Source: Scenedesmus sp. ARA3
Lineage: Eukaryota; Chlorophyta; Chlorophyceae; Sphaeropleales; Scenedesmaceae
Assembly (NCBI GenBank): GCA_004335835.1
Contig: RWJK01001708.1
Location: forward strand, 47,111 to 111,110
DNA length: 64,000 nucleotides
Direction: 5' to 3'
Each line of letters begins with the position of its first letter. Within the stretch, counting starts at the first letter, position 1. This document shows, piece after piece, positions 2,650 to 62,142 of the stretch. The notes beneath the pieces were generated by a model. That model did no database searches and had not been told where the DNA came from. It saw only the letters and a program-made list of their open reading frames with translations. The translations under genes were made by a program, and so were the position numbers.

Positions 2650-3893
2650 AGCTCGCCCTGCTCAGACCGTGCGCACCATCACGAACGAAAACATGCTGAA
2701 CCTTTCCCTGAAACCGCTGGCATGTTTTGTTGCACAAAGATTGTTGGTTGGACAAGTGTGCGAATTTGGTGCGAACATATGGTGACTGCGCGTTATAGCC
2801 CAAAACGTCCAAGGTTTGTCATTCTGCTGTGCTGCTGTGCATGAAGACACAGTAAAGTTGTCTGCCAGCCACCAGCAACCCCAAGCCGACTAAGAAAATC
2901 AACACAAATATCTCTGTCTCAATAAAGCGTACGCAGATGTCCGTCAGAGGACAATTAACATCTGGATGGAGCCCAGCAGACACTACTGTGCAGGCGCTGC
3001 GCCAGCCTCCTCGCAAAATTTCAAGCGTGGTGGTATGAGGGAGCAGCAGTGCGTGCCTGAATTAAAGCCACACAAACCATCTCCATCTCAAGAGCCGCCG
3101 CACATCCCAATCTCACAATGTAATAGACAAAACAAGGCCCTAATGTACATAGTGCAACCAAAGCAATTCAGTAGCTCCCCTGCACCACATGCATGTATGT
3201 GCCCTGCAGCCTGCGGGATGAGCCAGCTGGCTGTAGCCAGCCATAGGCCCCTTACACACCGTATCTGCCATAGCACTCAACACACGCGGCAGTACTGCAT
3301 GGAGTGCATTGATGCTGGGCCAGCAGATGCGAAAGGGCAAAATTATACAAAGCCAGGATCCGGAAGGACGCTGGTGATGCACAGCTGCGCACCTTCAAGC
3401 TATGCTGGACCAGAAGACCCCCACCCAGGTCTCCTGGTACTCGAATGCAACGCCTGGCTTGCAGCCGCCAAGCCGAAAGCCAAGCAGCCATGCCGAACAC
3501 CAAAGCCTCACTGACACCCTGGCAAGCTCATGCTGATGCGATCGTATGGATGCAGGAAGTACACAAACAGTGCCGCCCCAACACTTGACAATCGCAGCAA
3601 CAAGACAAGTCGTGCGCACACTTAAGCTGCTGTTGAGGACACATATCAGAGACTACACACTCGCCGAACTCAAAGACCCAAACACTTTGCAAGCCTGCTG
3701 CGACCCTGCTCTGGCCGTTCCCATCAGCACACGCTGCCCATCAGTAAACGAAGCGCACCCTGCAACAGCTCATTCCTCACGCAGCACATCCCTCTCACCT
3801 CGCGCCAAACAACGCCTGCCTGGCACTTCACACATGACTGCATGATGCTACCCCACACGCAACTGCATGCCGGTTGACCGCCTAATCGTCAAC
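2650..3893. other. Intergenic stretch, nothing recognisable
   Basis: Lies between the start of the membrane-protein gene and the echo array past the stop of the CTLH/UBA gene, both on the minus strand. It should hold the promoter of the former. Open frames here (such as 2966-3514 plus) have no domain, no coding-like codon pattern and no plausible splice partners. Confidence 0.5.
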
Positions 3894-4310
3894 CAAATGC
3901 AGCCGAGATGATGGCCTGTGCATCGCCGCCCTGCTCTGCCAGCAGCTCCAGCGCAGTGCTGGAATGCAACGCCACCACCACCATCATCACCTTGTGCCAG
4001 CTTGCCGCTCAAGCGCCAAACGCAGCCAGAATGACCGCCGATGCATCACCGCCCTGCTCCGCAAGCAGCTCCAGCGCAGCTCAAATGCAACACCATCGCC
4101 ATCACCATCACCAAGCTGCCGCTCAAGCGCCAAATGCGGCCAAAATCACAGCCTGTGCATCGTCGCCCTGCTCCTTCAGCTGTGACTTCTGCGCACCTCA
4201 TGCGCTCAGCGCTATCTTCAAGATGTGTACCACCTCATGCGCCAAATGCAGCCAGAATGACCGCCTGTGCATCGCCGCCCTGCTCTGCTAGCAGCTCCAG
4301 TGCAGTAGCC
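3894..4310 (-). repeat. Stop-codon echo array: three diverged copies of the end of the CTLH/UBA gene
   Basis: The real gene ends at 4235 with the peptide AVILAAFGA and a stop. Beyond the stop, at about 4117-4183, 4003-4082 and 3894-3961, the same stretch recurs in the same orientation. Two copies keep AVILAAFGA-stop; the outermost ends AIISAAFG-stop. Spacing is about 110-125 bp. All three lie in the 3' UTR or just beyond, so they do not alter the protein. Confidence 0.85.
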
Positions 4311-6048
4311 CGGGGCAGCTCCAGCACCTCCATCACCTGCAGCACCTCAGCCTCATCAAATTCCAACCCCTCAGCATCTTCGCTGCCGCTCATGTCGGCA
4401 TCATGCAGCTCCGGAGGCTGATCCTGCAAGTCTGAGTCATCGTCAGCACCTGCAACTGCTGCTACGCCGGCTGCAGCCGCATTTGCGGCAACGCCTGGGC
4501 TTGCAAGTGCTGCTGCTGCCGTACCATCTGCAGCAGAGCCAGCTGCTGCTGCCGCTGAGTCAGCTTGCAGGAGCTTATGCAGCCCCATGGCAGCAGCAAA
4601 GGGGTCCTGGCAGCGCTGCACCCTAAACCACCCCTTGTGCGCCGTCAGCAGAACCCTGAACAGCTTCACGAGGGCCGGCGGCTCCACGCCGAGCTTGGAC
4701 TGCAGCAGCGGCAGCAGCTGCGACAGCACTTTGCTGCCGGCCTCTTCCAAGCTGCTGCTGCTGCCTGCTGTGTTTGCTGCTGCTGCTCCAAAGACAGGGC
4801 CTGGCAACAGCAGCGCCATGCTCGACTTGAGCTGCGGCAGCAGCTCTGGGTGTGCATCTGCCAAGGGAGTGAGCTGGCTGCGGGCCAGCTGCAGGGCCCC
4901 TGGCAGGTCGTTGGACTGCACCAGCTGCAGCACATACCAGAGCCAGTCAGGGGGCTTTGGTTAGTAAGGCATAGTTGGCAAAGCTTGCCCTTGAGCAACG
5001 GGTGACATACTCATCAGACAAATTTGTTGTTAGTGCTGGACCGGGCGTACCTCCCTTCACACGCGCAGTCAACAGCAACCTTCCACCAGCAACCTCGCAC
5101 GTCCTTGCTACAAGCAACCCTTTCCACGCTTGCCCAAACCCCTTGCATACCTGCTGCCACCCCAACCCCCCCTATGACACCCATGGAGCACAAATAGCTG
5201 ACAGCATTTGATACACCAGGCACTCATTAACACGCAGCACAGCACCCACCTGCATGAAGTGGCAGCGCTTCAGCTCAAACCTCAGGCTGGGGCTCTCTTG
5301 CAGCAAGCCAGGCTGCAGCTCCTCAACCAAAGCCTCAGCTTCCGGCCAACTGCCCTGTTTCACAAGCCCCTGCAGCTGCGCCAGTGAGGCCTGCAGGCCC
5401 TGCTGCTGCTGCGACGCATCCTTCATGCTGCTGCTGCCGCTGCCGCATGCTGCTGCCGCAGACTTGAGTGAGTGCTGCAGCTGCTGCCAGCGCAGCTGCT
5501 GCTGCGCTGCGCGGGCAGCATGCAAAAGCTGCTCAGCAAGAGCATCTTCAGCCGCCTTGCTGCCCGGCTGTTGCTGCTGCTGCTGCTGCTTCTCCGGCTG
5601 CTGCTGCTTCTCCGGCTGCTGCGCTGCGTGCCTGCCCGCCTGACGGCCACTGCTCGTGTCTGCTGCAGCTTCCACACCAGCAGGGTTGTCGACAATGACT
5701 TGCAGCAGCCGCATTTCCTGCTGCAAATCACCGTCAGTTGCTGCTGCTGCTCCTGCTCCAGCTGCTGCTGCTGAGCCTGGTTGTTGGCCCAGAAAGCGTG
5801 AGGGCGTCTGCTTGCAGCGCCAGCGCGGCACCTTATACGGTGGGCTCTGAGACTCACTGCGTAGCATTGCAGCTGCCACAGGGCCGCCAGCAGCAGCAGC
5901 TAGACAGTGACCATGGCCGGCACCCCCTGCAGATGTGACAGGGCTGCCAGAGCCTGCTGCTGCTGCTGCTGCTGCTGCGCCAGTGCTGCCGTTGTTGCTG
6001 CGCTTCTGAGCCTTGCCGCTGCCGCCGCTGCTGGTGCGCGCCATGTCA

Positions 6049-6081
<33 letters not shown>

Positions 6082-8459
6082 TCTGCTGGACCATGGTCTA
6101 CGTCCATCATGTCAGAGGGTGCTGCTGCTGCTGCTGCTGCTGCTGAGGGCCCTTCATCTGGCTCCACTAGACCCCTGCAGCACACAGCACACGTCACACA
6201 CACACCAGCTCGAACATGAAACAGCAAATGAAACAGCAGATGGGTCAAGGGCAGAAGCAGCATGCTAAACGCTGCTACTGCTGGGTCTGCTGCAAACCTC
6301 TCTGGTAGGCATAGTAGCGGGTGTGGCATTCTACTCCGGCAACAGGATGCTTTAGAGCCCAAGGAATAAAGGAGCACCTTTAGTATGGCAGGCGAGTGCC
6401 GAGTAGCAACAGCCCAAACAACATGCAAAAGGCAGGCGCAGGATGCGGCAGCTGCAAAACAACGGCCCAAGCAGCGTCTAACAGTACTGCTGCAATCTGA
6501 GTCTGTAACAGGTACAGCACGCAAGTTCAAGAGTACACAAGGACAACAACACACAAAGGAGTTCTGGCTGCTGCTCGTGCGCACCTTGCAACCGCATACT
6601 CCCACGCCAGCGCATCAACCTTCTTGCTGTTCAGCCTGAAGCGCATCAGCTGCCATGCCAGTGCTGCTGCTGCATCGCCGCCAGCTGCTTTGAGAGCATC
6701 CAGAGCAGCAGAGCGGGGGATGCTCACCGCAGCCATCAGAGCCTGGTGCAGCAGCACAGGGCGACAAACTAGGTTGGTCATAAGCACAACCACTAGTTGG
6801 TTATACGCAGGTGGTCACTGAGCCATCAGGGCGTTCAAGCAGCTCAAACTGCAGGCAAAAGGAATTGACAACCCTGCATGAGGCATGCGACATGCAGGAA
6901 GCACAGCAGCTGGGAATATCCTCAATTACACCTCGATAATACATCAGCATTGCTGGCGCTGCCGTCCTGCAAGCAACCAAACAAAGATGCAGCAAGGAAG
7001 GCATGAATAAAGGTAACAAAATAAACAGAAGATATCAATATAACAAACACACCTGCACGTCGCGCTCGTTTGTGGGCAGGCCTGCCACGTCAGGCGGCAG
7101 CGGGCCCTCGTCCCGCCCCTCCAGCAGCAGCAGCCCAGCCGCCAGCTCAGCACCAGCAGCCGCCAGCTGCTGCTGCAGCGCCGCATGGCTGCCGCTGCCC
7201 CTGCTGCTGCTGCTGCTGCCGTGGCTGCCGCTGGTGTAGAGGCTGAAGAGGTGTGAGAGGTACGCCAGCAGCTGCGCCAGCTGCGGCGCGCGGCAGCCTG
7301 TGGTGCAGCAAGCATGGTCAGAGGTGCAGCGAGGCGGGGAAGCAGCGCTGTGAGGCTTGTGACTGCTGCAGCTGTTGCTCATTCCGTTACTGTTGCTCGC
7401 TGAGTGCCCACTGGCAGCACCGCATTCGAACTGGAGCTCCGGAACAAGAACCACTGCTGCAGAAGTACTCCTTTCAAGTTGCAGTGAACGATACAGCAAA
7501 AACACATCATGGCCGCACCACACGACGTGTTGGCAAGCTCACCAGACTCCTGCAGCATCGTGTGCTGCAACACCTCCGCCAGTTGATGCCGCGCGCACAG
7601 GGACCCATCCTGCTGCTGCTGCTGTCCCTGCTGCTGCTGCTGACCCTGCTCTTGCTGCTGCGGCTGCAGCAGCATCAGCATCGCCCGCTTGAAGTCCAGA
7701 TAAGCCTCCGGGTAGGCATCCAGAGCAAGAGGTGCCAGCTCTTCTCTTGCACAGGCCAGCGCTGCTGCATCGCCTGCTGTTGTTGACTGCCGCAGCAGCT
7801 CAATGAACTGCTGCCGCTTCAGCTTGAACCCCAAGCGCTGGTCCTGCAAGGGCATACCGAAAGCATCAAGAAGCAATGCAGCAGTGGGTGTTGACCATGC
7901 TGCGCATTTGATAATGGGCTGTGGCAATTGCATGGAAGGCTACGTTCAGCCGCAGGACATCCATGTATGTGCTAGAAATACACCGTGCGCATGCATGCTG
8001 CTGCTACTGATTGCTGAAAAATGCTGCTGATTCTTGGCCAATGCAGCTGGCGTGAGCACACCTGCAGCACTTGCGGGCAGAACCTGGACACAATGGCCGT
8101 AGCGTTGCACACGTTGCCCTGGTGCAGCTGCTCGTATGCAGCAAAGGCAGCAAGCCTGCTTGCCAGCTGGCACTGGCTGCCCTGTGAGGAGACATCCTGC
8201 AACACCATATATTTGATAGCATTAGGCAACCGTGATGATTTGTGCAGGACGTCCTTGTTGCAGGACAGCGTTGCTGCAGGGAGGTGCATGCGCTAGCAGT
8301 GCTGCTGTGTCCTGCAAGCATGCGTCGCGCGCATATGCATGCACAAGGCCCGCGCACCTCCACCAGCTCTGCAGCAGCCAGGTACTCCAGCACCAGGCCG
8401 TCCAAGGCTGTACAATTGACATCCAGCAGCTGAGGGCTGCCCTCTGAACGTGTGTGCAT
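4235..8459 (-). CDS. LisH/CTLH protein with two CTLH regions and a C-terminal UBA-like domain (GID/CTLH E3 ligase-like)
   Basis: Eight exons: 8459-8358, 8196-8062, 7843-7543, 7297-7053, 6848-6807, 6742-6585, 6174-5250 and 4924-4235. The phases close to 865 aa. Residues 20-34 (LVLEYLAAAELVE) look like LisH. Residues about 45-115 match a GID8/RanBPM-type CTLH, with GNVCNATAIV followed by FKLKRQQFIELLRQ. A second CTLH-like segment spans about 600-680 (SLRFELKRCHFMQLVQSNDL). Residues about 825-865 resemble a UBA domain (VLQVMEVLELPR, then LLAEQGGDAQAVILAAFG). Poly-Ala and poly-Gln tracts fill the middle. CTLH proteins scaffold the GID/CTLH ubiquitin ligase; the UBA could bind ubiquitin (inference). 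The start is the nearest ATG before the LisH and is not certain. The gene is divergent to SPF30 with 642 bp between start codons. Copies of its last codons lie downstream. Confidence 0.8.
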
Positions 8460-9101: not shown

Positions 9102-11946
9102 ATGGCTGAGGAAACTCACAGCGTGGAGGAGCTACAGCAGAACCTGCATGATTACCGGGAACAGCAGCAACAGGTGGGCGCTGCGTACTGACAAGAAGCA
9201 CCAGACACCCCATCATTCTATGCCAGCTGCAGCGGCCTTTGCCTGATGCCGTCCTGCGCGCATTCCTTTGCCCATGGAGCGGCTCACCGGTTGAATAGCC
9301 ATATGCCAGCAACTTCTGATGTATGTAGCAGTGCTTGTTACTGTGGCAGCTTGCTCGCTGCAGCTACTGCAGCACAGCGCTTGACAGGGCATGCTTCTCT
9401 GCAGCACTTGCTGGTGCGCCTCTCCAGGCCCTGTTTGTGCACACCCATCTAGCTTTATCTAGCTTTATCATGATAGCACCTGTGGTGCCTCAAACTAGCA
9501 ACTGACTGGCAACCAACTGCTTACTTGTGCATGCCAGGTTGAGACGCTGCTGCTGTCAGACCCTGGCAATGAGGAGCTACGGGAGATGTATGACAGCCTC
9601 TCAGAGGTCATCCAGCTGACAGTGGACCTGTTGAAAGATGCGGGAGCGTCAGAAGCAGCAGCAGCAGCAGCCGCAGCAGTGCCAGCAGCAGCAGGTGCGG
9701 CTGCATGCAATGCGCGCTGTGTGCTGAGCATGCTGCTAAAGCGTGAAAGACACATGGCTGGTTCGGCAGCTGCGCAGCAGAAGAATCTACCTTGCATGCA
9801 GTGCAGTGCAGTGCACCCATGTACCACCTTGTTGTTGGCAGCCGCGCTGTATCTGGTTTGTGTCTTACTGTCAGCAAGGCTTGTCGTGCGTTGTTTAAGT
9901 TCACAGTCAACCATCGCCTGCTTCGTTGGCCTTTTGCTGCCCACTCCCGCAGGTCTGGCAGCAGCAGCAGCAGCTGGAGCAGCAGCTCCAGCACTAGCAG
10001 CAGCAGCAGCTGCTGGCCCAAGCAGCCTCGAGCAGCAGCAGCAGATAGTCACGCCAGCAGAGCTCAACATCGCCGCAATGCTGCCAGCCTCAGTCGCTGA
10101 CCAGATCCGGCGAGCACAGGTCAAGCAGGCGCTTCTGGGTCAGGGCAATGCAGCCTGGGCAGTCGGGGCGGCCTGCCTGGCCCTGTACAGCGGGGATGGG
10201 CAGTACTACCCAGCTACTGTGAAGGCTGTGACAGATGCCGGCAACTTTGTGGTGCTGTTTGAGGGCTACGGCAATGAAGAGGAGGTGCGTGGGGTGATGA
10301 TGCTTTGGCCGGTGTGCTGGCAGTGGCTGTATGGTCGGCTGTGCTTGGCAAGCAGCAGTGTGGGGTCGCAGGGTGCAACTCGCAGTGGATAATGTGCACT
10401 GCCGGGGCTCAGGAACACCAGCAGCTACCAGCCCTCAAGCTGCCCTGCCGCCGCATCAGCTGCTTTCCCTGCTGCTGTGCTTCTTGCTGCTGCCAGCTGC
10501 CTGCGGCAGCATGCGTCCGCCCGCTGACCACAGCAGGGCCCCATGCTGAAAACCGCGATGTCGCTCTTCCCCTGCTGCTGCTTCTTCACATTGATGTTGC
10601 TGCTGCTGCTGTTGCTACAAACATCCGCTTGCGCTGCTTCTGCTGCCAGCTGCCTGCGGCCAGTGTGCGGCTGCGCCTTGAGGACAGCTGCAGCTCGTGC
10701 CCCTTAACTGACCCCTCCTGTCTGCCCTGCGGCTGTGCTGCTGCTGCTGCTGCTATTATGGTTGCCGTCTCAGCTGCCTGCGGCCAGCGTGCGGCCGCCG
10801 CTGGAGGACAGCAGCGGCTACACGGGCGTGGCTGCGCCCAAGCGCAAGCGCGTGGAGGAGGAGCCAACTGTGGACCAGGCGCCGCCCAAGGTAAGTTGCA
10901 GAAGCTGTCATTCTGGACTGTCGGGTGGTGCGGGGGCGGAAGTGTTGCAGTGATATGTTACGATTGTATTGCCGTCTTCATCCGTGCATGGCAATTCGCT
11001 GGAAGGCATCTCTGGAGTCTGCGCACGGAACTGTTGAGGTTGCTGCCTTGCGTGACCTGGGTTCTTATGCTGATGCTGATGCTGATGCTGATGCTGCTGC
11101 TGCTGCTGCTGCTGCTGCCGCCGCCCCCGCAGTGGCTGGAGATCAAGCCCACTGACGACGAGAAGACCGTGGCGCGCAAGAAGAAGCTGCTCAAGAGCTT
11201 CAAGAGCAAGCGGCGCTTCCAGGAGATGGACATCAAGCAGAAGGAGCGCCAGAGCAACTGGCAGAGCTTCCTCAAGGGCAAAGGGGGCAAGCCCAAGACA
11301 GGTGCGGCTGCTGATGGTGGCATGTGATGGGACGTGGCAGTTTCGAGCAGAATAGGCCTAGGCCTGGCCCAGCTGCGCCATGATGGTGCCAGTGCTGCAG
11401 GTGTTCACTTCCAGTGTGTCACCTGTGCTGTGCCTGAAGGGCAAGGGCGGCAAGCCCAAGACAGGTGCGGCTGCTGCGCCTATTGTTAAGCACTTACTGA
11501 GCACTTGCATGCCTTGTGTGACAGCGTGTGCGGCGGAGGCTGCTCGAGGGAAAGGGAGGCACAAGCTCAACACAGGTGCGGCTGCTTCGCAGAAGGCTGC
11601 TTGCATGCCTGAACTGTCCCTGGGGGAGGTGCCAGCGCTGCAATGTTGACCTGGCCACGCGCTTCGGCTGCTAGGCGCACGCGCTCAACGCACCGTCAAG
11701 CGGCAATGGTAGGTGAAGCCGCCGCTGCCGGTGATGTAAGGATGCTGGCTCTGCTGACCTTTCTGTGTTGCTGCTGCTGCTGCTGCTGCTGCTGCCGCCG
11801 AACCTTTGCCACCAGGCTACTTCACTGGGCGCAAGAAGGAGAGCATGTTCAAGGTGCCAGACAACGGCAAGGTGGGTGTCATCGGCTCGGGCAAGGGTGT
11901 GACCGAATACAAAAAGGCGGCACGCCACGAGTTCCAGGTGGAGTAA
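9102..11946 (+). CDS. SPF30: Survival-motor-neuron-related splicing factor 30 (Tudor-domain spliceosome protein)
   Basis: Six exons: 9102-9173, 9538-9694, 9953-10284, 10774-10890, 11133-11301 and 11816-11946. The phases close to 325 aa. The N-terminus (MAEETHSVEELQQNLHDYRE, then VETLLLSDPGNEELREMYDS) is a helical region typical of SPF30/SMNDC1. A Tudor domain at about 142-200 reads AACLALYSGDGQYYPATVKA with FEGYGNEEE. A basic block (KRKRVEEE) follows. The C-terminus (KKESMFKVPDNGKVGVIGSG) matches the family's conserved end. SPF30 helps recruit the tri-snRNP into the spliceosome; its Tudor domain binds dimethyl-arginine on Sm proteins. The protein is longer than the animal form (about 240 aa) because of Ala/Gln tracts at about 67-105. 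Introns 4 and 5 hold decayed copies of exon edges. Confidence 0.93.
10491..10820 (+). repeat. Acceptor-side echoes of SPF30 exon 4
   Basis: Exon 4 starts CTGCCTGCGGCC (10774; LPAASVRPPLED). In the intron before it, 10491-10540 and 10641-10697 carry the same start in decayed form (readable as LPAACGSMRPP and LPAASVRLRLED). Spacing is 130-150 bp. The third and last copy is taken as the real exon because it alone continues into the long coding stretch and donor at 10890. Confidence 0.8.
11262..11590 (+). repeat. Donor-side echoes of SPF30 exon 5
   Basis: Exon 5 ends at 11301 within GGCAAGCCCAAGACAG|GTGCGG. Copies of the exon end plus donor follow at 11431-11480 (GKGGKPKTGAAA preserved) and 11540-11590 (GKGRHKLNTGAAA, more decayed). 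Both keep ACAG|GTGCGGCTGCT, so both retain a usable 5' splice site inside intron 5. Confidence 0.85.
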
Positions 11947-22568: not shown

Positions 22569-24498
22569 TCACTGCGAGCTGTCTGTCTGCTCCGGCGCTG
22601 GCACCTGCCCTGGCTGCGGCAGCAGCTGCTGCTGCTCTGCCGCCTGCTTCGCTGCTGCTGCCGCTGCTGCCTCCTGCTCCTGCTCCTGCTCCTGCAGGGC
22701 CTCTCTATCTGCCTCCTCAACTGCCTGCTTGGCCAGGCGGCCCACAAAGCCGAGTGCAATTGCTGTTGCGCCGAGTGCGAGTGCCACCTGCCAGGTCTCA
22801 ACGCCCAGGCTGCCCTCACCCTCCGACAGCACTGCCTTGCCCACATGGCCTGCACACACACAGGACAGCAGTGTGTAAGATTATGTTTGATGCTTATGGA
22901 ACAGTGTGTTTGGCATGTGTTGATACTTGCTCAACCCAGCTTTTCATGTAGACTTTGGCAAACATAACCACTGTGCGCACCTGCTGTCACATATGCATAT
23001 GTGCCTGGCAGCATGCCCAGCCAGCTTCCCAGCACGTAGCTACCCAGACCAGTGACATAACACAACTTCATAACACATTTTTGCAATTAAACAACATATC
23101 TCACCTGCTGTAACATACGCATATGTGCCTGGCAGCATGCCCAGCCAGCTGCCCAGCACATAGCTGCCTAGGTCAACGCTGGTCAACGCTGGTCGAACAT
23201 AAAATAACTTGATAGGTAGCTGACGCATCTCACCTGCTGTCACAAAGGCGTAGGTCCCCGGCAGCATGCCCAGCCAGCTTCCCAGCACATAGCTGCCCAG
23301 GTCCGCGGCTGGTCAACGCTGGTCAAACATAACATGCTTCAAAGATAGCGACAATGCTCACCTGCTGTGACATACGCGTATGTCCCTGGCAGCATGCCCA
23401 GCCAGCTGCCCAGCACGTAGCTGCCCAGGTCCACAGCTGGTCAACGCTGGTCAAACATAACACGCTTCAAACATAGCGGCGGTGCGCACCTGCTGTAACA
23501 TAAGCATAGGTCCCTGGCAGCATGCCCAGCCAGCTGCCCAGCACATAGCTGCCCAGGTCAACGCTAGTCAAACATAAAATAACATGACAGGTAACTGACG
23601 CGTCTCACCTGCTGTAACATAAGCATATGTCCCTGGCAGCATGCCCAGCCAGCTTCCCAGCACATAGCTGCCCAGGTCAACGCTGGTCAACCCATACAGG
23701 TAGTTGGAGGCAGCCAGCGGCAGCAGCGGGCTCAGCCGCAGCAGCGTGACAAACTTGAGCCCGTTGCGCGAGATGGCTCGGTCGATGGCAGCAAAGCGCT
23801 TGTTGCGGCCAGCCAGCTTCATAATCTGCGGGGCGCGAATGGGTACAGATGGCAAATGCGGCAGAAGGAAAATGAACGAGCGGTGCAAGCAAGGCAGCGG
23901 CTAGCAAGCGCTTGTTGCGGCCCGCCAGCTTCAAGATCGGCGGGGTGGGGACCGAAATAGGATAGCAACTGCGGCAACAGGAAGCTGCCAGACATGCACC
24001 GCTAGCAACCGTTTGGCAACATTGCACAGCAACATTAACCACCTACCAACAGCTACATCACTACAATGCTCAGCAATGGCTGTGCATGAGTTGAATCAGC
24101 AGCACTGCTGCTCTCATTCAAGACCTGGCCACGCGCACCTTGTCGCGCGCTGCGTATCTGGCGATCAAGAATGCGATCGTTGCTGCCAGTGTTGCGCTGC
24201 ATGACACAATGATGGTGCCCGGCACAGGCCCAAAGATGACGCCTGCTGTCATGGTCAGCGGGATGGCTGGCACGGCCAAGACCTCAAGCCCCGTGTACAC
24301 TGCTGCGTATGCAACGTAGCCCTGCAGGAGCGGAAGTACAACGCACCATCAAGCAGTCAGCAGCGCAGGTGTGAAAGAGAGTGCATAGGGTGGGATAGAT
24401 AGGTGCATGGCATGGAGCTTGTAGACGCCTGCAGCAGGCTGCTGCTATCTTGAAGCCGGCCGCTGCGCTGCTGCCAATTCTACTTGCATCCCAAGTCC

Positions 24499-28100: not shown

Positions 28101-28738
28101 CCTTTACAACAAGCTGACTGCCATTCCACCATCATACAGCCGCCATGCACCACACATCCTTCCAGTCACCCCTGCCAGCGCCATCGACAGCACCAGCGCC
28201 ACCACACAAATCACGCTTGTGTAGTTTGTTGTTGCTGTGAGAGTGTGACACCACACACGGAGCTGCTTACTGCGCCAACACAGGAGTGCCAGCTGCGATG
28301 CATGCAACACCACCATGCCGACACACGAGTGCCAGCCACAACACATGCCACACATTCAGGCAGCAAGTCCAGAAGCCGTTTTTCCGCTTGGCCGCCCTCC
28401 AAGGGCTGCTGCCACAGCAGCACTAGCTGCTGTGCCAGACAGCCCACCTTCAAACACGCAAAAGCATGCCTCCTACGCACACGACAAGCCCATGTTCCAA
28501 GATAGTTTTATCCATGCAATCCTTGCGTCAGCTGCCAGGCGCGCAGCACCAGCAGCATGTGTGCTCCACACCCTGCCAACACGACAGCCGCCCTTGACAC
28601 CAAAAAGCCATTACCCCTGGCTGCATGTCACAACAAAATGCAGCCAATCACACCAGCAAAAAGCACGTGGCTCGTCACAACAGCCTGACAAACATCGCAT
28701 CAACAAAAGCAAACGCGCGCCACAGCTGCTTACAAGCC
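25162..28738. other. Intergenic stretch, nothing recognisable
   Basis: About 3.6 kb upstream of the VTT gene and downstream of the cryptochrome. A 277-codon minus-strand frame at 27119-27952 is the longest open frame; it is Cys-rich with no domain and no homologous neighbour, so it is not annotated. No RNA gene was seen. Confidence 0.45.
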
Positions 28739-28975
28739 ACCTCACTGCCTGGGCCGTGAGGATGCCTCCAGCTGCAGATCCTGCAGCCTCGCAGCCACTG
28801 GCAGCCCACTACAGCCACACAAACACAACACGTCGCCGCTCGACTAATTACAACACATGTATAAGAAATAACATGTCATAACATGTCATAACACACCCGT
28901 GCCATGGCTGCTGCCACCTCACTGCCTGGGCCGTGAGGATGCCTCCAGCTGCAGATCCTGCAGCCGCGCAGCCTC
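28739..28975 (-). repeat. Stop-codon echo of the cryptochrome 3' end
   Basis: The last codons and stop of the cryptochrome (28919-28973 region, encoding LQDLQLEASSRPRQ) recur nearly unchanged at 28739-28795, 178 bp downstream. Between them lies a minus-strand TGTAA (plus 28848-28852), the usual chlorophyte polyadenylation signal, so the copy probably falls at or beyond the mRNA end. Confidence 0.8.
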
Positions 28976-31900
28976 AGCCACCAGCAGCAGCTTCTCATCA
29001 CCCCGCTGCTGCTGCTGCTGCTGCTGCTCGACCTGCTGCATCACATCATCCTCGCCAATGCTCTCCACAGCGCCATCTTCCAACGCCCCTGCGCCAGCTC
29101 CACCCTTGAAATGGGAGCAAGCAGTGCTCAAGCTTGCAGCAGGCCGGGCAGCAAACCTCCTTCCATGCATCTGCCTGCCAGCATGATACCTCCGTGCCTG
29201 CTGCTCCTCATCTTCCTCATAATCATCATCCATCATGTCAGCATCCTCATCATCACCAGCGGCAGCAGCAGCAGCAGCATCAAACCGCATTCGGCCGCCA
29301 AACTCTCCTCCTGCAAGCAGGCCATCTGCACCCACGCCGCCGCCTGCACTAACTGACGGCACCACAAGAAGCTCGCTGCTCTCAGCACGGCCGCCGCCGC
29401 TAGACCCTCCACCCCCAAATGCACCAGCCCCCAGCTGCTGCTGCAGCTTGAAGCGCTTTCCCCCAGACCCTGGCAGCAGCTCGCTGCTGTCTCCGTCTTC
29501 AACCTCCACCTCACACTGCTGCTGCTGCTGCTGCTGCCAGCGCAGCTCTTGGCTGCCGGCAGCGCTGCTGCTCTCATCCTCCATCAGAGCAGCACCGTTA
29601 TCTCCACTCTCGCTATCAATCTGGCTGTAACTCAGCTCCCCATCACCAGCAAACGTCCCACCAGACAGCTCGCCGCTGCCGCCGCTGCCCTGCCGCAACC
29701 CGCGCTTCGCGCCGGCAGCAGCAGCAGCCGCCGCAGGCCCCAGCAGCAGCTGCTGCTGGCCCATGCGGCCGCGGTACAGCCCGTAGAACCGCCCCATGTG
29801 GTCAAACCCTGTGCCATCTTGCTGCTGCATGGAGGGGCCCCACATGGGCCGCTGCTGCGCGGAGTGGCGTAGGGATAGCGGGTGGCCGGTGGCGCTGTGG
29901 ATGTAGAGTGGCGGCAGCTTGTCGCGCCAGGAGGAGGGCTCCAGCTGGGAGGCTGCCAGGAAGCTGGACATGAGGCTGGGGTCGGTTGGGGGCCTGCAGG
30001 ACAGGTGGCATAAAGAAGGACAGGAATTAGCACAGCGAGCAACGGATGCATGACATGAGCAGCAGCCAGGAAGCTGGACATGAGGCTGGGGTCGGTGGGA
30101 GGCCTGCAGGACAGAACAGAAGGCACAGAAAACAGGAGTCAGACAGTGAGGCGAGAGTGCAGCAAGTTAGCTGGGTATGCATACAGGCTCCAGCTGGGAG
30201 GCTGCCAGGAAGCTGGACATACAACGGGGGCCTGCAGGGCAGGTCGTGATCAGCAGCAGGTCAGCAGTTGTGAAATGCCTGGTGCGAGAGCTGACGGCAC
30301 CCACCTGTACGGCTCCTTGTGTGGCGTGAGGCTGTAGCCCGTGCCGCTGCTGCTGCCGCTGCTGCCGCTGCTGGGCGCGCAGCGCTCCACGACTGCTGAA
30401 GCCAGCGCCACTCCCTCCTTGGCTGCATCGGGCGCGATGATGGGCCAGGGGTAGTTGAAGCCCAGCTCAACGCCTGCGGTTGTGGCGTTAACAAAGACAG
30501 TGCATTCGGCTTGTGAGCTTGTGGAATGCAGACGCAACATAAGCATGAGCAAGTGCTGGGAGACCACGTGTGTGCAGCTGAGAAGCAGCAGTAATGATGG
30601 GCCAGGGATAGTTGAAGCCCAGCTCAACGTCTGCAGCAGGTGTGATGAACAAGGTGTACAGCGGCGATCATTTGAGCATGAGCAGTGAAGACTGTTACAT
30701 ATACGATACAACCAGCTGGGAAGCAGGATCACCAATGAGCCTGCGGCGAAGCACAAGACTACAGACATGCACACAACAAAACACACACAACATACGACAC
30801 TGCAGTAGCAGCAGCAGCAGTCTCACCTGCGTCCTCCAGCACCTCTGGCGGTGCCGCCCACGGCTGGTGGATGAACTCGTTGGGCAGCTGGCTCAGCACG
30901 GGCAGCCAGCGGCGCACGTAGTGGCCGTCAGGGTCGAAGCGGCGCCACTCCTGCTCCATGTCAATCATGTAGCTGAAGGGGTGCGCGTCTGCAAAGCGGC
31001 ACAGGGCGACAAGGACGTGTGTTGTTGAGAGACTAGGCGGATGTGAGGCATGCAGATGCTTCATGTTGATCGTGTAGCTGAAGGGGTGCGCTTCTGCAGG
31101 ACAAGGAGAGCAACAAAACAACAAAATACATATGTCAAACTGCATGAAAGAGAGCGACCAGCAGACATCAGGTCAGGCCATGCAGAGGTGCGAGCTGCTG
31201 AGTGCTGGGTGAGCCTGCACTTGCCCAGATACACATCCCTTCACGGACAGTTGGCGCATGCACACAACCAAGCGCGTTGCTCTCTCTTCTGCAGCAACTA
31301 TGCAGCACTTTAACCATTAAAACTAATTTTGAAACACGACTGTGCTGAGCGTCGCACCTGAGAGGCAGCCGCTGACGTACTGCCAGCCCAGCGCGTCGCA
31401 CTCCAGGTCAGCATCTTGCAGCTAGCCATGATGTACATATAGTGCAAAACCACTGTTACCACCGTGTTACAACCGCACCTGAGAGGCAGCCGCTCACGTA
31501 CTGCCAGCCCGGCGCATCACACTCCAGGTCAGCGCCTTGCAGCTAGCCATGTTATACATATACTGTAAAACCACTGTTACAACCCTGTTACAACCCACGC
31601 ACCTGAGAGGCAGCCGCTGACGTACTGCCAGCCCAGCGCATCACACTCCTCGTCAGCTCCTTGCAGCTAGCCATGTTGTACATAATGTGTGAGAATCGCT
31701 GTCAAAACCCTGTTACAACCCTGTTACAACCCTGTTACAACCGCACCTGAGAGGCAGCCGCTGACGTACTGCCAGCCCAGCGCGTCACACTCCAGGTCAG
31801 CGTCGATCTGGCAGTCCCACAGGTGCTTCAGCCCCCACTGCCAGGGCAGCAGCAGGTGCTTAACCATGAAGTGGCTCGCCACCACGCGCACGCGGTTGTG

Positions 31901-34900
31901 GCACCATCCCATGCTCCACAGCTGGCGCATGCCTGCATGCAAGATACAAGGTGTTACAGCACAGGCAGGGGACGGGCAAGCTTGTAGTCAGCAACACTTG
32001 CAAGCAGAGCACGCGGTTGTGGCACCAGCCCATGCTCCACAGCTGGCGCATGCCTGCAGCAAACCGTGGCGGCAAAAGCAAAGCACTCAGCAACAACAGC
32101 ATGCGAGGCAGCAAGCAGAGCACGCAGTGATGGCACCAGCCTATGCTCCACAGCTGGCGCATGCCTGCAAGAAGATGCCACAATGACGGCGGCAACAGTA
32201 GCAGCAGCAGGGGTCACCACCAGCACTCAACTTTGTCGGCAGCAAGCACTTGACAAAGAAGCACAGCCGGCAGTATCCAGTAACCTGATCCCTGGATGCT
32301 GCCGAACCTATGTGTTCCAAAACACAGCAGAATAGCAGCACCGCTCCACACCTGCGCCCACCAGCGGGTACCCGGTCAGCCCCTGCCGCCAGGCCTTTTT
32401 GAACGCGTCCTGGTCCAGCCTCTCCCAGCACCAATCTGCCAGCAGCCAATCTGCCAAAACACATATTTGCAAATCCTCATCGCATCACAGCGGCAGCAGC
32501 ACCCACCTGCGTCCACCAGCGGGTAGCCAGTCAGCCCCTGCCGCCAGGCCTTGAACGCGTCCTGGTCCAGCCTCCACGGCACCGCACGCAGGTGCGCCAG
32601 CATGGAGCGCTCCGTGATGAAGGGGAAGTGGAACGCCAGGTACCTGGCAGCAGCAGCACCAATCATACAGTTGAGTCAAAAGGAGTATGCATCAGCAAGC
32701 CATGCAGCGCAATATACATGATAAACAGAACAGGTGCAAGCAGCTGCTACTGACCAGCTACTGCAGCGCCGGCGGCAGCCAAAAGCTCCCAACACACGAC
32801 CCACCCCTGCCTGTGCAAGCACACACATGCTGCCGCAAACCCCGCAAACCACGTGACCGGCACACCCTCACCCCGCTCTGCACACCCACCTGCTGTACTC
32901 CCTGTAGCCCATCTGCTGCAGGAAGTGCAGCCGTACTTACACGCCACCCACGTCCATGCATACACAGTCTGGTTCAACTAGCCCGCCCACCTGCTAGACT
33001 CCCCTGTATCCCAACTGCTGCAGGAAGTCCAGCTTAACAGTACAGTCACCATTATTCACATGTACAAGCACTTGCACACATCAAGTCTCTCCACCAAATG
33101 CTGCCAACACAGGCCTACCCACCTGCTGTACTCTCTGTAGCCCATCTGCTGCAGGAAGTCGAGGCAGCTGCGGCCCTTGTCGCGCCCCGCGGCCTGCCAC
33201 TCCGCGTGCTTCTGCGCCACGCGGTAGTAGATATGGCGCACGCTGATGGAGCCAAAGTGGATCCAGGGGGACAGCATGGTCGTGGACTCGCGGTCCGTCT
33301 TGGCGCGGTCGTGCTCAAAGCTGGGCAGGCCCTGCGGCGGTTTCAACACATACAGTACAACACATACAGTACGATGCAGCAATGAGACAGAGCCGAGTGC
33401 TGATGCAGGTGTGCTGATAGTAAATTGCATGGTAGCGGACTCGCGGTCGGTCTTGCGCGCGGCAGCGTTTGCAATCAAGCCATGCACAGCATGAGCCCCA
33501 GACAGCAAATGGTGCTGCTGTTACACAGGAACAATCCAGCTGCAGCTGCCACGTCACCAAGCCGCTACCCCCAGCCTGTGTCGCAGTTGTTCCAACCACG
33601 CTACCGCAAGCCTCTTACACTACACTCTATGTACCGAGTGCGGCACCCACCTGCTCCAGGAAGGATTCCAGCCGTGCCACTGCAAGCCTCTACAGAAGAT
33701 ATAAAAACTCATAATCAACACATGCTGGCAACGCACATCACGGCGTTTCATCCGAGTAGGATACGGCGTTTCAGCGCCAGAGCCAGCTTCAGCCCTGCTT
33801 ACATGTTGTAAAATGAAAACTCTCCCTTTACATCAAGCAGCAGCCCAGCCTGCTCCAGGAAGGCCTCCAGCCGCGCCACTGCAAGCCTCTACAGAAGATA
33901 CAAAATCTCATACTTCTGTAGATATATAATATTATACTTCTGTAGATATATAATCTTTATAAATCAACAAATGCTGGCAACACACATCAACCAGCCAGCG
34001 CAGTACCCACCTGCTCCAGGAAGGCTTCCAGCCGTGCCACTGCAGCACTGCCGGCAGGGTCCCAGCGGTGAGTCAGCGCCTCAGTGGAGGCCTCCTGCTC
34101 GCGCGTGAAGAACCAGTCCACCTGGAGAAGCAGCAGCAGCAGCAGCAGATGTCAAGCAAGTGGAGCTACAACGCACATGACTCCTCAGTTGACACCCGCT
34201 GATTGAACAGATGCAGCGGCAGACGCCCACCTCATGCACTTCAGTAACCTGCTTCTGCAGTGCTCTGCTGGCACAGCTGGATGCATTGGCTTGCAGGAAA
34301 CAACGCACCTCGTGGACCGACATGCTGCTGTAGTGCTCTGGCACTGCCGGCAGTGGCCCAGTGGGCTCCGGCAGTGGCAGTGGAGGTGCGTAGGGCATGG
34401 CCAGGCAGCGGTCCCAGTAGGACTTGAAGGTGGTGTAGGGCTGCAGGTGGAGTGACGCGGGGAGAGTAAGAAAGACGCAAAGCTCAGACAGACACATTGC
34501 GGAGAATGGTGAACAGTGTTGCTGAACGATGGGAGGAAGAGTGCGCAGAGATGCGAGGCAGTGAGTCGCCACTACCACCACAACTTGCTGGTGACTGCAC
34601 AACTGCTGGCCTGCTCAAACTGATTCTGCACCTGCTACAGTGTTTTTTTCCCAGGTGCTTCTTTGGCTGCTCACTTGATGCGGCTGCCTGTCAGCTGCCA
34701 GCGGCAGCTCAGCATTGCATGCCTAGGCTCCTTTGCAAGCGCTGATGCTGTATCATGCTGCTGCTGCTGTTGCTGATTTACAGCTTCTTCCCAGCATAGA
34801 GCTACTGCTGCTGTATCATGCATTGCACGTAGTAGTAAGTGGGCCACACAAAAGCCCACTTACTACTCACGTCTAATTAAAAGAGCCTTCAGTCTAGTTC

Positions 34901-48875: not shown

Positions 48876-49027
48876 NNNNNNNNNNNNNNNNNNNNNNNNN
48901 NNNNNNNNNNNNNNNNNNNNNNNNNNNNNNNNNNNNNNNNNNNNNNNNNNNNNNNNNNNNNNNNNNNNNNNNNNNNNNNNNNNNNNNNNNNNNNNNNNNN
49001 NNNNNNNNNNNNNNNNNNNNNNNNNNN
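48876..49027. other. Assembly gap (152 N)
   Basis: A run of N. Open frames that read through it are artefacts. Confidence 0.99.
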
Positions 49028-55800: not shown

Positions 55801-56532
55801 TCGCTGCCGATATTGCTGCTGCTGCTGTAGTGTGCGCGAGACGCTGGCCAACTACGAGGACCCCACCATCATGTACCAGCTGCAGAAAGAGCTGGCCGTC
55901 AAGGAGGAGCGCTTTGAGGACGCGCAGAGCTTCCAGGAGAGGTGAGGCGGGCTTCTGCGCTGTTGAGGTGCAAGCAGTTCCGCAAGGTTTGACTGATATT
56001 TAGGTTGTTTTCCAAGGACGAGCGCTTTGTGAGCGCGCATACCTTCCAGGAGAGGTGAGGCGGGCGAAGAGTGTGCGGTTTGTCGACCTGTTGGTGCAGC
56101 AAGTTGGTCAGCGCAAGCAGAGTTGTTCACAGGCGCTCAAGCTCGGGCTTTGTTGCAGATGATCCTGCACCAACAGTAGTAACGCAGAGCTGAACAGCAT
56201 CAGTTCGTCGCAGCACCACTCAGTTTGCCGAGGCAGTTCGTCATTTGTGTTGGACGACACACAGCTCATTGCTCATGCCTCGCACCACTGTGCTTGCTGC
56301 TGCCTGTTGCGCGGCGTCTTCTGCCTCCACCCACCTGCTCACTGCTGCCGTCCACCGTCTGCTGCTGCCGCGCAGCATCGTGCACGAGATGACGCACAAC
56401 CGGCTGCTGCGCCTGGTGGTGGCCATGGAGTCCGCGCTGGCAGACGGCAGGTATGAGGAGGCCGCTCACCTGCGCGACGAGTACAAAAAGGCGGTGCAGC
56501 AGTCGCAGACAGCAGACCGCAAGGCGCTGTGA
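52861..56532 (+). CDS. BBD1: Bifunctional nuclease (DUF151) with C-terminal UVR motif, plastid-targeted
   Basis: Eight exons: 52861-53197, 53403-53462, 53771-53820, 54107-54172, 54999-55158, 55489-55558, 55831-55941 and 56376-56532. The phases close to 336 aa. The N-terminus (MAFSQACSSSCLLS, many Ser/Arg, few acids) is a likely chloroplast transit peptide. The DUF151 core follows: VVYLRVVGSEGVIPVHIGEN, ESNALLREIN, RPLTHDLMKNMLQEVGYRV, TDIIANTYYARVHV, then DVDARPSDAINLAVRFGAPV. The end (VVAMESALADGRYEEAAHLR, DEYKKAV) is a UVR/UvrB-C motif. This DUF151 + UVR layout is that of plant BBD proteins, which act as DNase/RNase in basal defence. The symbol is by analogy with Arabidopsis. Intron 4 holds a long fold-back, and the intron after exon 7 has an echo of that exon's end. 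Confidence 0.94.
54346..54454. repeat. Inverted repeat (45-nt arms, 19-nt loop) in nuclease intron 4
   Basis: The left arm 54346-54390 and the reverse complement of the right arm 54410-54454 agree at 37 of 45 positions. The loop is 54391-54409. Of the eight mismatches, seven are transitions. The transcript could form a long hairpin. Part of it reads as protein-like sequence, so it may be a coding fragment duplicated in inverted orientation. Confidence 0.8.
55898..56062 (+). repeat. Donor-side echo of nuclease exon 7
   Basis: The exon 7 end (KEERFEDAQSFQER, donor at 55941) recurs about 115 bp later at 56010-56062 (KDERFVSAHTFQER) with the donor GAGAG|GTGAGGCGGGC fully preserved. Confidence 0.85.
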
Positions 56533-58792
56533 AGCAGCGCAGCGTGGCGTGCAGCATCTGGCCCTGTCGAGTGCGGCAACCGCGGTGGCATCAAGCACTG
56601 CAGCCGCAGACAGGCGCTGCAGACAACGCAGCAGTTGTAGCGCGAGCGCAGCAGCTGGCGCTGTCTGTTTGTTGAGGGCGCTGCAGTCGCCAGCAGCAGA
56701 GCGCAGGGCGCTGTGAGCAGCGCAGCAGCTGGCTGCAGCACGTAGCGCAAGGCGCTGGGAGGCATGCAGCAACAGTCCCAGCTACCGGCTTAGTGATAGA
56801 CGAGTGTTTGGGTGCCTGTGGCAGGGCAACCCCCGCTGCCGCGTGTGGTGTATTTTTCTCAACTTCTCTCTCCTTTCGTACCTTTTTCCTTCTGCTCACT
56901 GCAAGACAGCAACATGCCAGCGCTCTTACAGGCTGCATGTTTGATGTGGATTGCTTGTGTGCGCCTGCATTGTGTATTTCAAATGCTACGCCAGCTGTGC
57001 GGTTTGCAGGGTCGGGCTTGATGCCTGCAGGGTTTTTGTGCTGGTGTTGGTGTGTGCTTGTACTCTATGATGATATGTATTGGCGTTGGGTTGGCTGGTG
57101 TGTTTTCACTTGTACCTGTATTGTAGAGAACGACCTTAGCTGGCAAGCAGCTGCTGCGGCTGTTTTGTGCGCTGAGCTGTCAGAGCTTTGCGTTTGTGTG
57201 GGCTGCATTGCGGCTGGGACATGGGTCCTGATGTCTGAGCGATGCGCCAGGTGTATGGAAGCAGGGTGTGTGCGTAATCTGTGATAGCATTTTGTGGATC
57301 TGCGTAGGTAGGTGTACAACACGGTTTCCGGCAAGGCTAGCATGTGTCTGGTGTTGGGCCCCCTGGGTGGTAGCTGGAGGAGCTGCCGCCAGCCAAGCAC
57401 AACGGCAGAGGCGTTTAGCATGCACAGTTGCTCCTGCTGCAGTGCAGCTGCTTTTGTTTGAAATGCTTCTTTGAGGGCGTCATTCTCTGCGTGCAGTGAC
57501 TGAGCGTTTCAGGCTGCATGCTGCTGGCCAGTGTTCTAGAAGCATCATGCAAATATATGCTTTCCCCTAGATGGGCTTTGTGTTGTTTGCTGTTTGCGGC
57601 AGCAATTGTAGGCAGGCACAGCACACGTTTTCTGTATGCGGTACAGGAGAGCACAGCTTGCAATCAGATGGCTTGTTGCTTACGTCGCTCACGCACTGAC
57701 GCAGCTTGCTGATACTGTTGCTGCTTGCATCTGTCATGTGGCAAGACCACGATATGCTACCATTGCATGCAGATGTATCACGTATGGACTAGCCATCACT
57801 TCACTTCACGCGCAAACAATGTGCCGCTACATGTTGACAGAGGGATTGTACTGATGTGTTGTGTTGCAGCAAAGGTTGCAAATGTTTGCCACAGTTATGT
57901 TGTAGCATGGAGGCGTACCTGGCTTGCTTCCGTGACTGTAGCCCTCCTGTTGCAGCCTTGAGGGTAGTGTGGCATGCTTCTGCATGCATGCAATGCTATG
58001 TCTGCTGCTCGCTGCGCTGAATTTGCTGACTGTGTGGCTTGCTGTCAAGGGTGTAGCAACAGGTTGTACAATTTGTTTCAAGGGTAGTTGGGTGGGTGTA
58101 ACAACAGGCATGTGAACCTTGTCAGGGCCCGCTCTTGCTGCTGAACTTGTACAGACTTCAAGTATGTTCAATTTGAACCAGTCGACTGTAGCCCCTGGAA
58201 CCGACAGAGATCTCTTACTTTTGAGAAGGCCTGAACGTGGTGGGGTTGATCATAGATACTGTGCAAACAGATGGAAACATTCCCGGTTGCCAAGCACAGC
58301 TGGCAGAGGAACTAAGACAACCCTGTTAAAGGATACTTTTGGCGGCTGCATCCGCATGACAAGCAGCAATGGCATGGTCAACTGCCCACACAGTGACACT
58401 GTGTGGCGCCAGTGGCGATGCGCAGGCGAACTTGACGTGTGCCACACGCAAACGTGTGCTGTGCCAACAGTGCTGTGAACTTGTGTACACAAAAAAACAT
58501 GTTTTCGTCAACATCATGCAGCCCTCTCTATGCATACACACTTGCCTAGCATATGATGATGATGACTTGCCTAGCATATGCTTACGTCAGGCTTGCAAGC
58601 CAAAGCAAAACAACGCCGTCAACCACTGCTGACTGAGCTGAGTTTTGGCAGCGATGTCATTTGAACAGCTGTGGGCAAACTCTCTCAGCAACTGCAAAAG
58701 GTGCGCAAACACCAACATCAAGCCCAGGGCATCTATTAATACATAACAGAGGCTGCATCTGCATGCCCCTTCAACCATCATGGCTCTGCCGC
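56533..58792. other. Intergenic stretch between convergent genes, nothing recognisable
   Basis: About 2.3 kb between the 3' ends of the nuclease (plus) and the MYND gene (minus). It contains the 3' UTRs, a small direct repeat with CTTGCCTAGCATATG at about 58,542-58,582, and featureless open frames. Confidence 0.45.
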
Positions 58793-61012: not shown

Positions 61013-61062
<50 letters not shown>

Positions 61063-61174
61063 AGCGGCGGCGGCGGCAGCGGCTGATCGCCTGGTGAGAC
61101 TTCCGGGCTGCCGCCGCCGCCGCCGCCACCGCTGCTGCTGCTGTTGCCAATCATGCTGGGAGGATCCGAGGGGC

Positions 61175-61206
<32 letters not shown>

Positions 61207-61957
61207 AGCTGCTGCTGCGGCTGCGGCTAATCGCTTGGTGAGGCCTCCGGGCTGCCGCCGCCGCCGCCGCCGCCGCTGTTGCCGCTGCTGCTGCTGCCAT
61301 TCATGCATGCCAGCACTGCCCTCAGGGCAAGTGAGGCTCACATGCAGGCCGATTGGCAGATCAAGCGGTTCCATGCGCAGCATCAACTGCTTAGCTGGAG
61401 CCCCCATCGCCGCCAGAAACTCCTCGTGGTACGGCACAACAGCCAGACCCTGCTGCCGCCTCCCACTGCTGCTGCCGCTGCTGCTGCTGCCGCTGCTGCT
61501 GGAGATCCCGTCCTGTGCTGCAATCGGTGAGATGCCTTTCGCGCTGCTGTGTATCACTTGCAGCTGCAAAGCCAGCCGCAGGTACATCAGCTGCATGAAG
61601 GCAGCTGCACCAGCAGGATATCCACGCACCAGCTGGTCATAGGCGGCTGCAGCCTCCGGACCTTCTGATATGTCAGCTGATGTCATTAACATGCTCATAG
61701 CCGTAACCACCAGCTCAGCATCCTGTACGTACGCTGCTGCTGCTCCTGCACTTGTGGCGCTGCGCTGACTGCTGCTGGATGCTGCAGTGCTCCCGCTGCT
61801 GCTGCTGCTGGGTGGTAGCCAAGCACCCAGCAGAGTGACCCCCAGCTGCGCTGCGGGCAGCAGCAATGCACGCCACTGGGCGCGGTCAGACTGCCGGTGA
61901 TCAGACGCGCAGGACATGAGGAGCGAGAGCACGGATGTAGCCAGCAAGCTGCTGCTG

Positions 61958-62016
<59 letters not shown>

Positions 62017-62074
62017 ATTGCCGCGCTGCCACATTCTGCGGGCCCGCTGCTGCGGCTGTGGAGCCGGCACCTGC

Positions 62075-62142
<68 letters not shown>

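Follow-up and report, generated by a model that had tools for sequence, protein, structure and literature searches.

Why should the ends of exons recur in the non-coding DNA next to the exons they resemble? The question is raised by a 64,000-nt stretch of the green alga Scenedesmus sp. ARA3 (C1307:47111-111110, contig RWJK01001708.1), hereafter the window, from an assembly of 87.27 Mb in 1567 contigs. The window contains a plant-type cryptochrome gene on the minus strand, and 10 of the gene's 20 boundaries (nine donors, nine acceptors, the start, and the stop) carry extra copies of the exon edge, 16 in all. We call these copies echoes. Tandem duplication across the boundary, with the copy hidden by splicing or by the stop codon, is well supported as their origin. 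Their exon-derived parts have stayed more intact than the adjoining intron-derived parts, which may reflect continued recombination with the real exon edge.

The Cryptochrome Gene and Its Echoes

The 10 exons were placed by hand and are separated by GT-AG introns. From exon 1 (35486-35355) to exon 10 (29993-28919) they sum to 2622 nt and form a single open frame of 873 residues plus a stop. The closest protein is a Tetradesmus obliquus cryptochrome (P0001, PF00875 and PF03441; 95% identity across the 571 residues searched). Donor echoes were found for exons 4 (two), 5 (two), 6 (one), and 7 (three), acceptor echoes for exons 5 (one, partial), 7 (two), 8 (one), 9 (one), and 10 (two), and the stop has one. 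The initial annotation had these ten boundaries right, with one to three extra copies each, but its statement that nearly every boundary is duplicated holds for only half of them. At least one array lies in each of introns 4-9; the array scan found none above threshold in introns 1-3. Four other genes of the window also have echoes, as first reported. These echoes number 12, which with the cryptochrome gene makes 28 in five genes, where about 30 had been claimed. Coordinates are given in Table 1.

The first acceptor echo of exon 10 has no first- or second-position differences in its aligned part. The partial acceptor echo of exon 5 begins ~23 nt within the exon, and it is at this edge, where the window carries just a worn partial echo, that the T. 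obliquus record P0001 contains the first 26 residues of exon 5 twice. The repeat in P0001 may be genuine translation or an annotation error. A diverged cryptochrome paralogue (L007) was also sampled. According to a translated match, it apparently has an extra intron within the region matching exon 5 (L007 2386-3682, on C1241). This intron is flanked by echoes on both sides, four donor and two acceptor, and is a candidate for intron gain or loss. The exon 7 donor region has three extra copies in both paralogues (L007 5397-6193), which may be of independent origin or the result of homogenization.

Loci Sampled and Gene Prediction

The discovery set comprises the window, L007, and L009-L023, 217 kb in total. 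L007 was picked by search and L009-L011 adjoin L007 or the window, so these loci are not random; L012-L023 were chosen by contig number. L008 (C1241:164001-174000) was left out because 7,233 of its 10,000 bases are N. Six additional 10-kb stretches, L024-L029, form the replicate set, in which L027 has 4,112 bases of N.

Gene prediction relied on a small hidden Markov gene finder, for which the discovery sample served as training data, and all counts beyond the cryptochrome gene rest on these predictions. The gene finder returned the cryptochrome splice sites exactly from the exon 2 donor through the exon 10 acceptor; it truncated exon 2 at the start and overlooked exon 1. A version trained for six rounds fragmented genes into tiny exons and was dropped in favor of a penalized version. 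Predicted short exons that copied a larger exon were masked, and genes were then predicted again. Local direct pairs were defined by an offset <1 kb and a score ≥24 after masking of simple repeats. Arrays were built from pairs within 1.2 kb and classed by their best pair. Echo counts cover exons of at least 60 bp and exon overlaps of at least 25 bp. Divergence tests leave out start-edge rows and rows of contrary direction. In neutral simulations, the ages of copies were fitted to first and second codon positions.

Placement and Direction of the Copies

Direct repeats in the discovery loci are overwhelmingly local, with 245 pairs at <1 kb and 8 at 3-9 kb. The 244 pairs within 1.2 kb form 85 arrays. 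Of these, 42 span a coding boundary and 11.6 would be expected from random placement, an excess of ~3.6-fold. Intron-only arrays show no excess (10 observed, 13.9 expected), intergenic arrays (14, 26.9) and those with both copies coding (9, 23.9) fall below expectation, and copies of an exon-internal piece (9, 8.1) and mixed arrays (1, 0.5) are close to it. If any pair of an array may decide its class, the boundary arrays number 50 and the intron-only arrays seven. The replicate set gave 90 local direct pairs in 33 arrays, 17 of them at boundaries (4.3 expected). The others were intron-only (2, 4.7), intergenic (1, 12.2), coding in both copies (1, 7.8), exon-internal (10, 3.7), and mixed (2, 0.3).

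The predicted excess of boundary-crossing over internal duplications thus appears among arrays. It does not appear among unmasked 120-base tiles with local copies, which hit intron interiors (81/338) about as often as donors (35/156) and acceptors (46/159), so the excess is one of arrays. Exon-internal tiles were inflated (83/290; null 5.9% per flank), which is why simple repeats were masked in subsequent tests. Triplet runs of the CTG/CAG type are very common in the window, e.g., at 60822-61224 and 61948-62143.

In both sets together, echoes were found at 32/200 donors, 21/200 acceptors, 8/54 stops, and 5/55 starts, and at 50 of the 189 testable introns, about one quarter. When exon edges were compared with foreign introns at a score of 22, the null rate was 0 for donors and 0.12% for acceptors; the observed counts were 36/189 and 26/189 introns. 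Echoes cluster by gene: in a set of 35 genes, 46/169 introns have them, and the chi-square of 70.3 (34.1 when permuted) was reached in 0/5000 permutations. They occur in 7/11 introns of the isopropylmalate synthase gene at L017, 7/9 introns of one gene at L025, which we take to be lactate permease-like, and 0/9 introns of one gene at L013. Across all sampled loci, introns with echoes are longer (median 474 vs. 261 bp).

Donor copies had been described as always lying 3′ of the exon and acceptor copies 5′, and this direction rule was borne out. Copies lie on the hidden side, i.e., 3′ of donors and stops and 5′ of acceptors and starts, in 81/85 rows of the discovery set and 35/35 rows of the replicate. 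At least one of the four contrary rows (window 23436) is an echo mispredicted as an exon.

Spacing and Spacers

No local inverted pair was found at the threshold that yielded 244 (discovery) and 90 (replicate) direct pairs. Templated insertion, which also predicts inverted copies, was rejected for this reason. Adjacent echoes are spaced at a minimum of 88 bp and a median of 134 bp (n = 107), with 34/107 at 100-120 bp and 89/107 below 200 bp. The units are tandem, as proposed, and their spacing is wider than the 105-190 bp first given. The resemblance of the units to nucleosome scale is, on these data, a coincidence of size only. Median spacing is 132 and 126 bp in non-coding arrays and 121 bp in boundary arrays. 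This similarity points to a ruler set by the mutation rather than by splicing. A tandem repeat scan of the window returned periods of ≤24 and ≥121, with none in between, and shorter periods are rare in the sample (a 63-bp array at L011 and an 84-bp array at L016).

In boundary arrays the median aligned length is 0.49 of the spacing. Spacers within an array are homologous (z > 3) in 23/55 pairs; the other 32 average z 1.03, nine of the 55 lying at z 1.5-3 and 23 at ≤1.5. In several arrays the spacers are ≥80% alike. This partial homology of the spacers favors a tandem duplication whose unit extended into the intron. A search for a spacer motif gave weak 7-mer enrichments only.

Preservation of the Exon-Derived Part

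Followed away from the boundary, donor and acceptor echoes are mostly 0.82-0.98 identical on the exon side to 30 bp, where the match ends. On the intron side, identity drops to 0.54-0.68 beyond ~9 bp, and unrelated introns give ~0.55. Overall, the exon parts are ~88% identical and the intron parts mostly unrecognizable past ~9 bp. The same asymmetry holds between echoes, with 0.80 for the exon part and 0.545 for the intron part, and the exon part is higher in 44/48 pairs. Exon divergence is 0.117 where introns are unalignable (41/77 copies, z < 2) and 0.103 where they are alignable. Neutral simulation predicts intron identities of 0.71-0.83 at equal rates and 0.62-0.83 over one- to twofold rates. 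The observed value of 0.54 was matched only with introns evolving ~3x faster and many long indels.

The differences that have accumulated are concentrated at third codon positions. Divergence between echo and exon at positions one, two, and three is 0.077, 0.069, and 0.185 (107 copies at 61 boundaries), and the ratio of third to first and second positions is 2.54 (bootstrap interval 2.06-3.22; replicate alone 2.48, 1.69-3.69). On theoretical grounds, a copy drifting neutrally next to an exon under full constraint should reach a ratio of ~2 at most. Third-position divergence climbs little across classes of increasing first- and second-position divergence (0.176, 0.159, 0.164, 0.208, 0.249), and 22/107 copies have 0/784 changes at first and second positions and 69/392 at third. 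With one copy drawn per boundary, in eight draws, a neutral fit was 6-12 log units below fits with an intercept or a constrained fraction. The fitted coding-like fraction of copies is 0.2-0.5, and the echoes look like a mixture in which some are decaying and some are coding-like.

Possible Exchange Among Copies

The clearest case is the array at the donor of a VTT-domain gene of the window, where the true edge and five echoes lie 119-129 bp apart. Differences fall at 13 of 69 exon sites, 11 of them third positions. These sites carry no phylogenetic signal (14 steps for the best tree vs. 13.4 permuted, P = 0.98), and 7/10 site pairs fail the four-gamete test. The five spacers of the same array are strongly tree-like (21 steps vs. 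26.7 permuted, 0/100 as low), and 5/36 pairs fail. Third-position differences are also clustered along exon parts (88 vs. 69.8, P = 0.006, 103 pairs).

Public sequences were compared with the predicted genes. P0241, a homologue of the VTT-domain gene with four member sequences (99% identical, longest contig 2998 bp), has the segment once and no echo. Its frame continues without a break where the introns lie, and it is therefore probably derived from a transcript. The T. obliquus protein P0121 likewise has the exon segments once and no echo. These two records support splicing at the outermost site. Against a T. obliquus protein, the isopropylmalate synthase of L017 matches in 385/400 aligned columns, and 13 of the remainder are a gap in the prediction. 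Together with the cryptochrome match, this identifies the source of the window as T. obliquus or a close sister species. At 7578-7946 in L017, an in-frame echo was predicted as an extra exon of this gene, duplicating the segment LGVDVIEAGFPVS, which P0121 has once.

Table 1. Exon-edge echoes and related features of the window.
Feature	Position	Strand	Basis
Plant-type cryptochrome gene, 10 exons, 873 residues	28919..35486	-	Open spliced frame, T. obliquus homologue
Stop-codon edge echo, 3′ of stop, copies 28913-28980	28736..28803	-	94% over 68 nt
Exon 10 acceptor echo 1, copies 29952-30004	30062..30114	-	94% over 53 nt
Exon 10 acceptor echo 2, worn	30201..30253	-	Family D4, 66% ungapped; gapped copy legible
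Exon 9 acceptor echo, copies 30437-30477	30594..30634	-	95% over 41 nt
Exon 8 acceptor echo, copies 30952-30993	31057..31098	-	88% over 42 nt
Exon 7 donor echoes, three tandem, period 121-144	31353..31721	-	Donor boundaries 31357, 31478, 31602; spacers homologous
Exon 7 acceptor echoes, two (32000-32058, 32111-32169)	32000..32169	-	Family D2
Exon 6 donor echo, copies 32482-32574	32327..32422	-	83%
Exon 5 donor echoes, two (32884-32926, 98%; 32986-33028, with inserted base)	32884..33028	-	Family D5
Exon 5 acceptor-side partial echo, copies 33274-33308	33427..33462	-	89%
Exon 4 donor echoes, two (33650-33713, 33849-33912)	33650..33912	-	Family D3
Stop-edge array of gene 4236-8459, two echoes	3893..4285	-	Array scan
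Donor echoes of 11301, two, boundaries 11464 and 11575	11433..11600 (end approximate)	+	Array scan
Donor array of VTT-domain gene, true donor (last exon base 23609) and five echoes (23490, 23362, 23234, 23105, 22981)	22974..23691	-	PF09335 homologue P0241
Acceptor echo of VTT-gene exon 23609-23825, one	23906..23983	-	Array scan
Donor echo, true donor 55941	56013..56065	+	Array scan
Stop-edge echo, stop 56531	56677..56715	+	82% over 39 nt

What May Maintain the Copies

The copies, their direction, the size floor, the asymmetric decay, and the codon-position signature are observed. The explanation we prefer, at a little less than even confidence, is duplication followed by exon-limited recombination with the real exon edge. 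Tandem duplications in direct orientation, ~90-200 bp long, would be frequent. Those within exons would be eliminated by selection. Those crossing an edge would survive, since the outermost splice site, the one touching the intact exon, would stay in use, and the copy would come to lie inside the intron, 5′ of the start, or 3′ of the stop. The exon-derived part of the copies would recombine onward with the real edge, by gene conversion or unequal exchange, in what is presumably the sole stretch still homologous. Such exchange would refresh the copies and shuffle synonymous variants among them. It would also pass variants through the coding position, where selection could filter them, and the intron-derived spacers would drift apart. 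An extension of this idea, possible but doubtful, is that introns serve as reservoirs of spare exon edges. Exon-limited recombination would swap variants, a bad parked copy could spoil the gene, and purifying selection would thereby reach the parked non-coding copies and keep them coding-like.

Several results weigh against this explanation. In the 11 stop-edge copies, identity on the non-coding side stays at 0.64-0.73 for 25 bp, a softer drop than at splice sites. The third-to-first/second ratio is just 1.78 between echoes (1.39-2.36). Simple two-copy conversion should, by reasoning, also give at most ~2, so the ratio of 2.54 and the surplus of copies with zero changes require an extra constraint beyond it. 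Private changes are 100 non-synonymous and 67 synonymous in echoes and 2 and 15 in the true exon, and 24/107 copies are frame-shifted or bear a stop. Finally, at the 11 boundaries with at least three echoes, not all of them informative, 28/47 pairs of exon sites are incompatible (28.2 expected), and the spacers are not tree-like (29/51 pairs incompatible, 26 of them from one array). The other arrays are too small or noisy to repeat the contrast between exon and spacer trees, which therefore comes from one array, that of the VTT gene.

The simplest rival is plain survivorship, in which hidden boundary-crossing duplications decay neutrally and the intron part fares worse because both of its copies drift. 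It accounts for the direction rule, the shortage of coding-internal arrays, the homology of spacers in part of the pairs, and the mostly non-synonymous private changes of echoes. The 20/77 copies with clearly alignable introns also fit neutral expectation, with an exon divergence of 0.10 and an intron substitution of 0.14. We nevertheless consider it unlikely, as exon divergence is hardly higher where introns have become unalignable, the simulations miss the observed intron identity, and a neutral model has a lower likelihood than both alternatives. Accordingly, the persistence model of the initial annotation stands in that tandem duplications, mostly of 100-200 bp, are frequent and kept where splicing or the stop hides them, but not as a merely passive process, the exon part being too intact relative to the spacer and its differences concentrated at third codon positions. 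Exchange between diverged haplotypes would also explain the codon signature. Here the lineage would be hyperdiverse or hybrid, and the echoes would come from, or now lie beside, other alleles that differ by ~12-15% in third positions; synonymous differences and foreign intron flanks would be present from birth. The intercept of third-position divergence (~0.12-0.15), its small rise with first and second positions, and the difference of the related strain (P0001) at the exon 5 edge are in keeping with this. We regard it as rather improbable because five echoes in one array would require many alleles, spacers are closely alike in several arrays, and searches of the assembly with stretches of the VTT, isopropylmalate synthase, L025, and cryptochrome genes found no second haplotype among the scored candidates (40 of 50 in one search). 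All of these candidates were the query gene, diverged paralogues, or short matches of a repeat-like kind. A search of a plasmid collection gave no match.

Selection on the echoes themselves, as functional alternative exon edges or splicing decoys with coding and splice-site content, is possible for some copies and very unlikely as a general account. The coding-like fraction, the intact splice dinucleotides (50/57 donor and 35/38 acceptor rows), and the one echo that stands as coding in P0001 speak for it. However, stop-edge echoes have no splicing role, P0241 and P0121 lack echoes, and many copies are broken; in the discovery set, 15/17 indels within the exon-derived parts disrupt the reading frame, with possible double counting where alignments overlap. 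An assembly artefact of uncollapsed or misjoined pieces, which the number of contigs and some N runs might suggest, is the most improbable explanation. Exon parts of echoes differ from the exon by 0-27% and spacers differ too, the only N run of the window (48876-49027) is away from the boundary arrays, the cryptochrome frame is intact, the direction rule holds, and a public T. obliquus protein has an exon 5 echo.

Relation to Known Systems

Tandem duplication across a boundary is a known kind of event, to which our reading adds a proposed recombination limited to the exon part. In rice, the commonest insertions are short tandem duplications of 50-200 bp (PMC7971508), and Vaughn and Bennetzen (2014) are cited there on patch-mediated short tandem duplications of plants. 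Like these, which are mainly 50-200 bp, echoes are direct and next to their source. Unlike them, boundary echoes survive long and occur in several copies at one edge, with a floor of ~88 bp and a coding-like exon part. A single case is described for potato in which a duplication crossing an intron-exon boundary created a new intron (PMC4974935; reviewed in PMC3443670). There the new intron and extra exon sequence joined the mRNA, whereas the protein here appears unchanged. Mutually exclusive exons from tandem duplication are also exon-related tandem copies within introns, but echoes usually copy one edge and one splice site, not whole exons (PMC6071210). Introners are likewise repeated sequences linked to introns genome-wide (PMC9860276); echoes instead resemble their own exon and share little between loci.

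An introner-like family was rejected on 23 inter-locus vs. 245 local pairs (227 kb, score ≥24) and 0 vs. 90 in the replicate, in a small sample of the genome. The AGGT signature of classical intron gain by duplication is absent, as 1/189 and 2/189 introns exceeded the 99.5% null (0.9 expected each). Gao and Lynch are said to have treated internal gene duplication and intron creation in 2009; partial duplications reportedly include splice sites, as echoes do. In the open-licence PMC literature, to the extent its text was accessible, we found no genome-wide pattern of boundary echoes, only single-gene cases and reviews.

If this reading is correct, about one quarter of the introns sampled from a common green alga bear the record of tandem duplication at a high rate. 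They would also show coding-like conservation within DNA that is spliced out, which would mislead gene finders and conservation scans, a risk illustrated by the echo that counts as coding in a public protein of T. obliquus. The echoes would further offer a natural system for studying how splicing chooses when several sites are nearly identical, and whether selection can reach non-coding copies through gene conversion.

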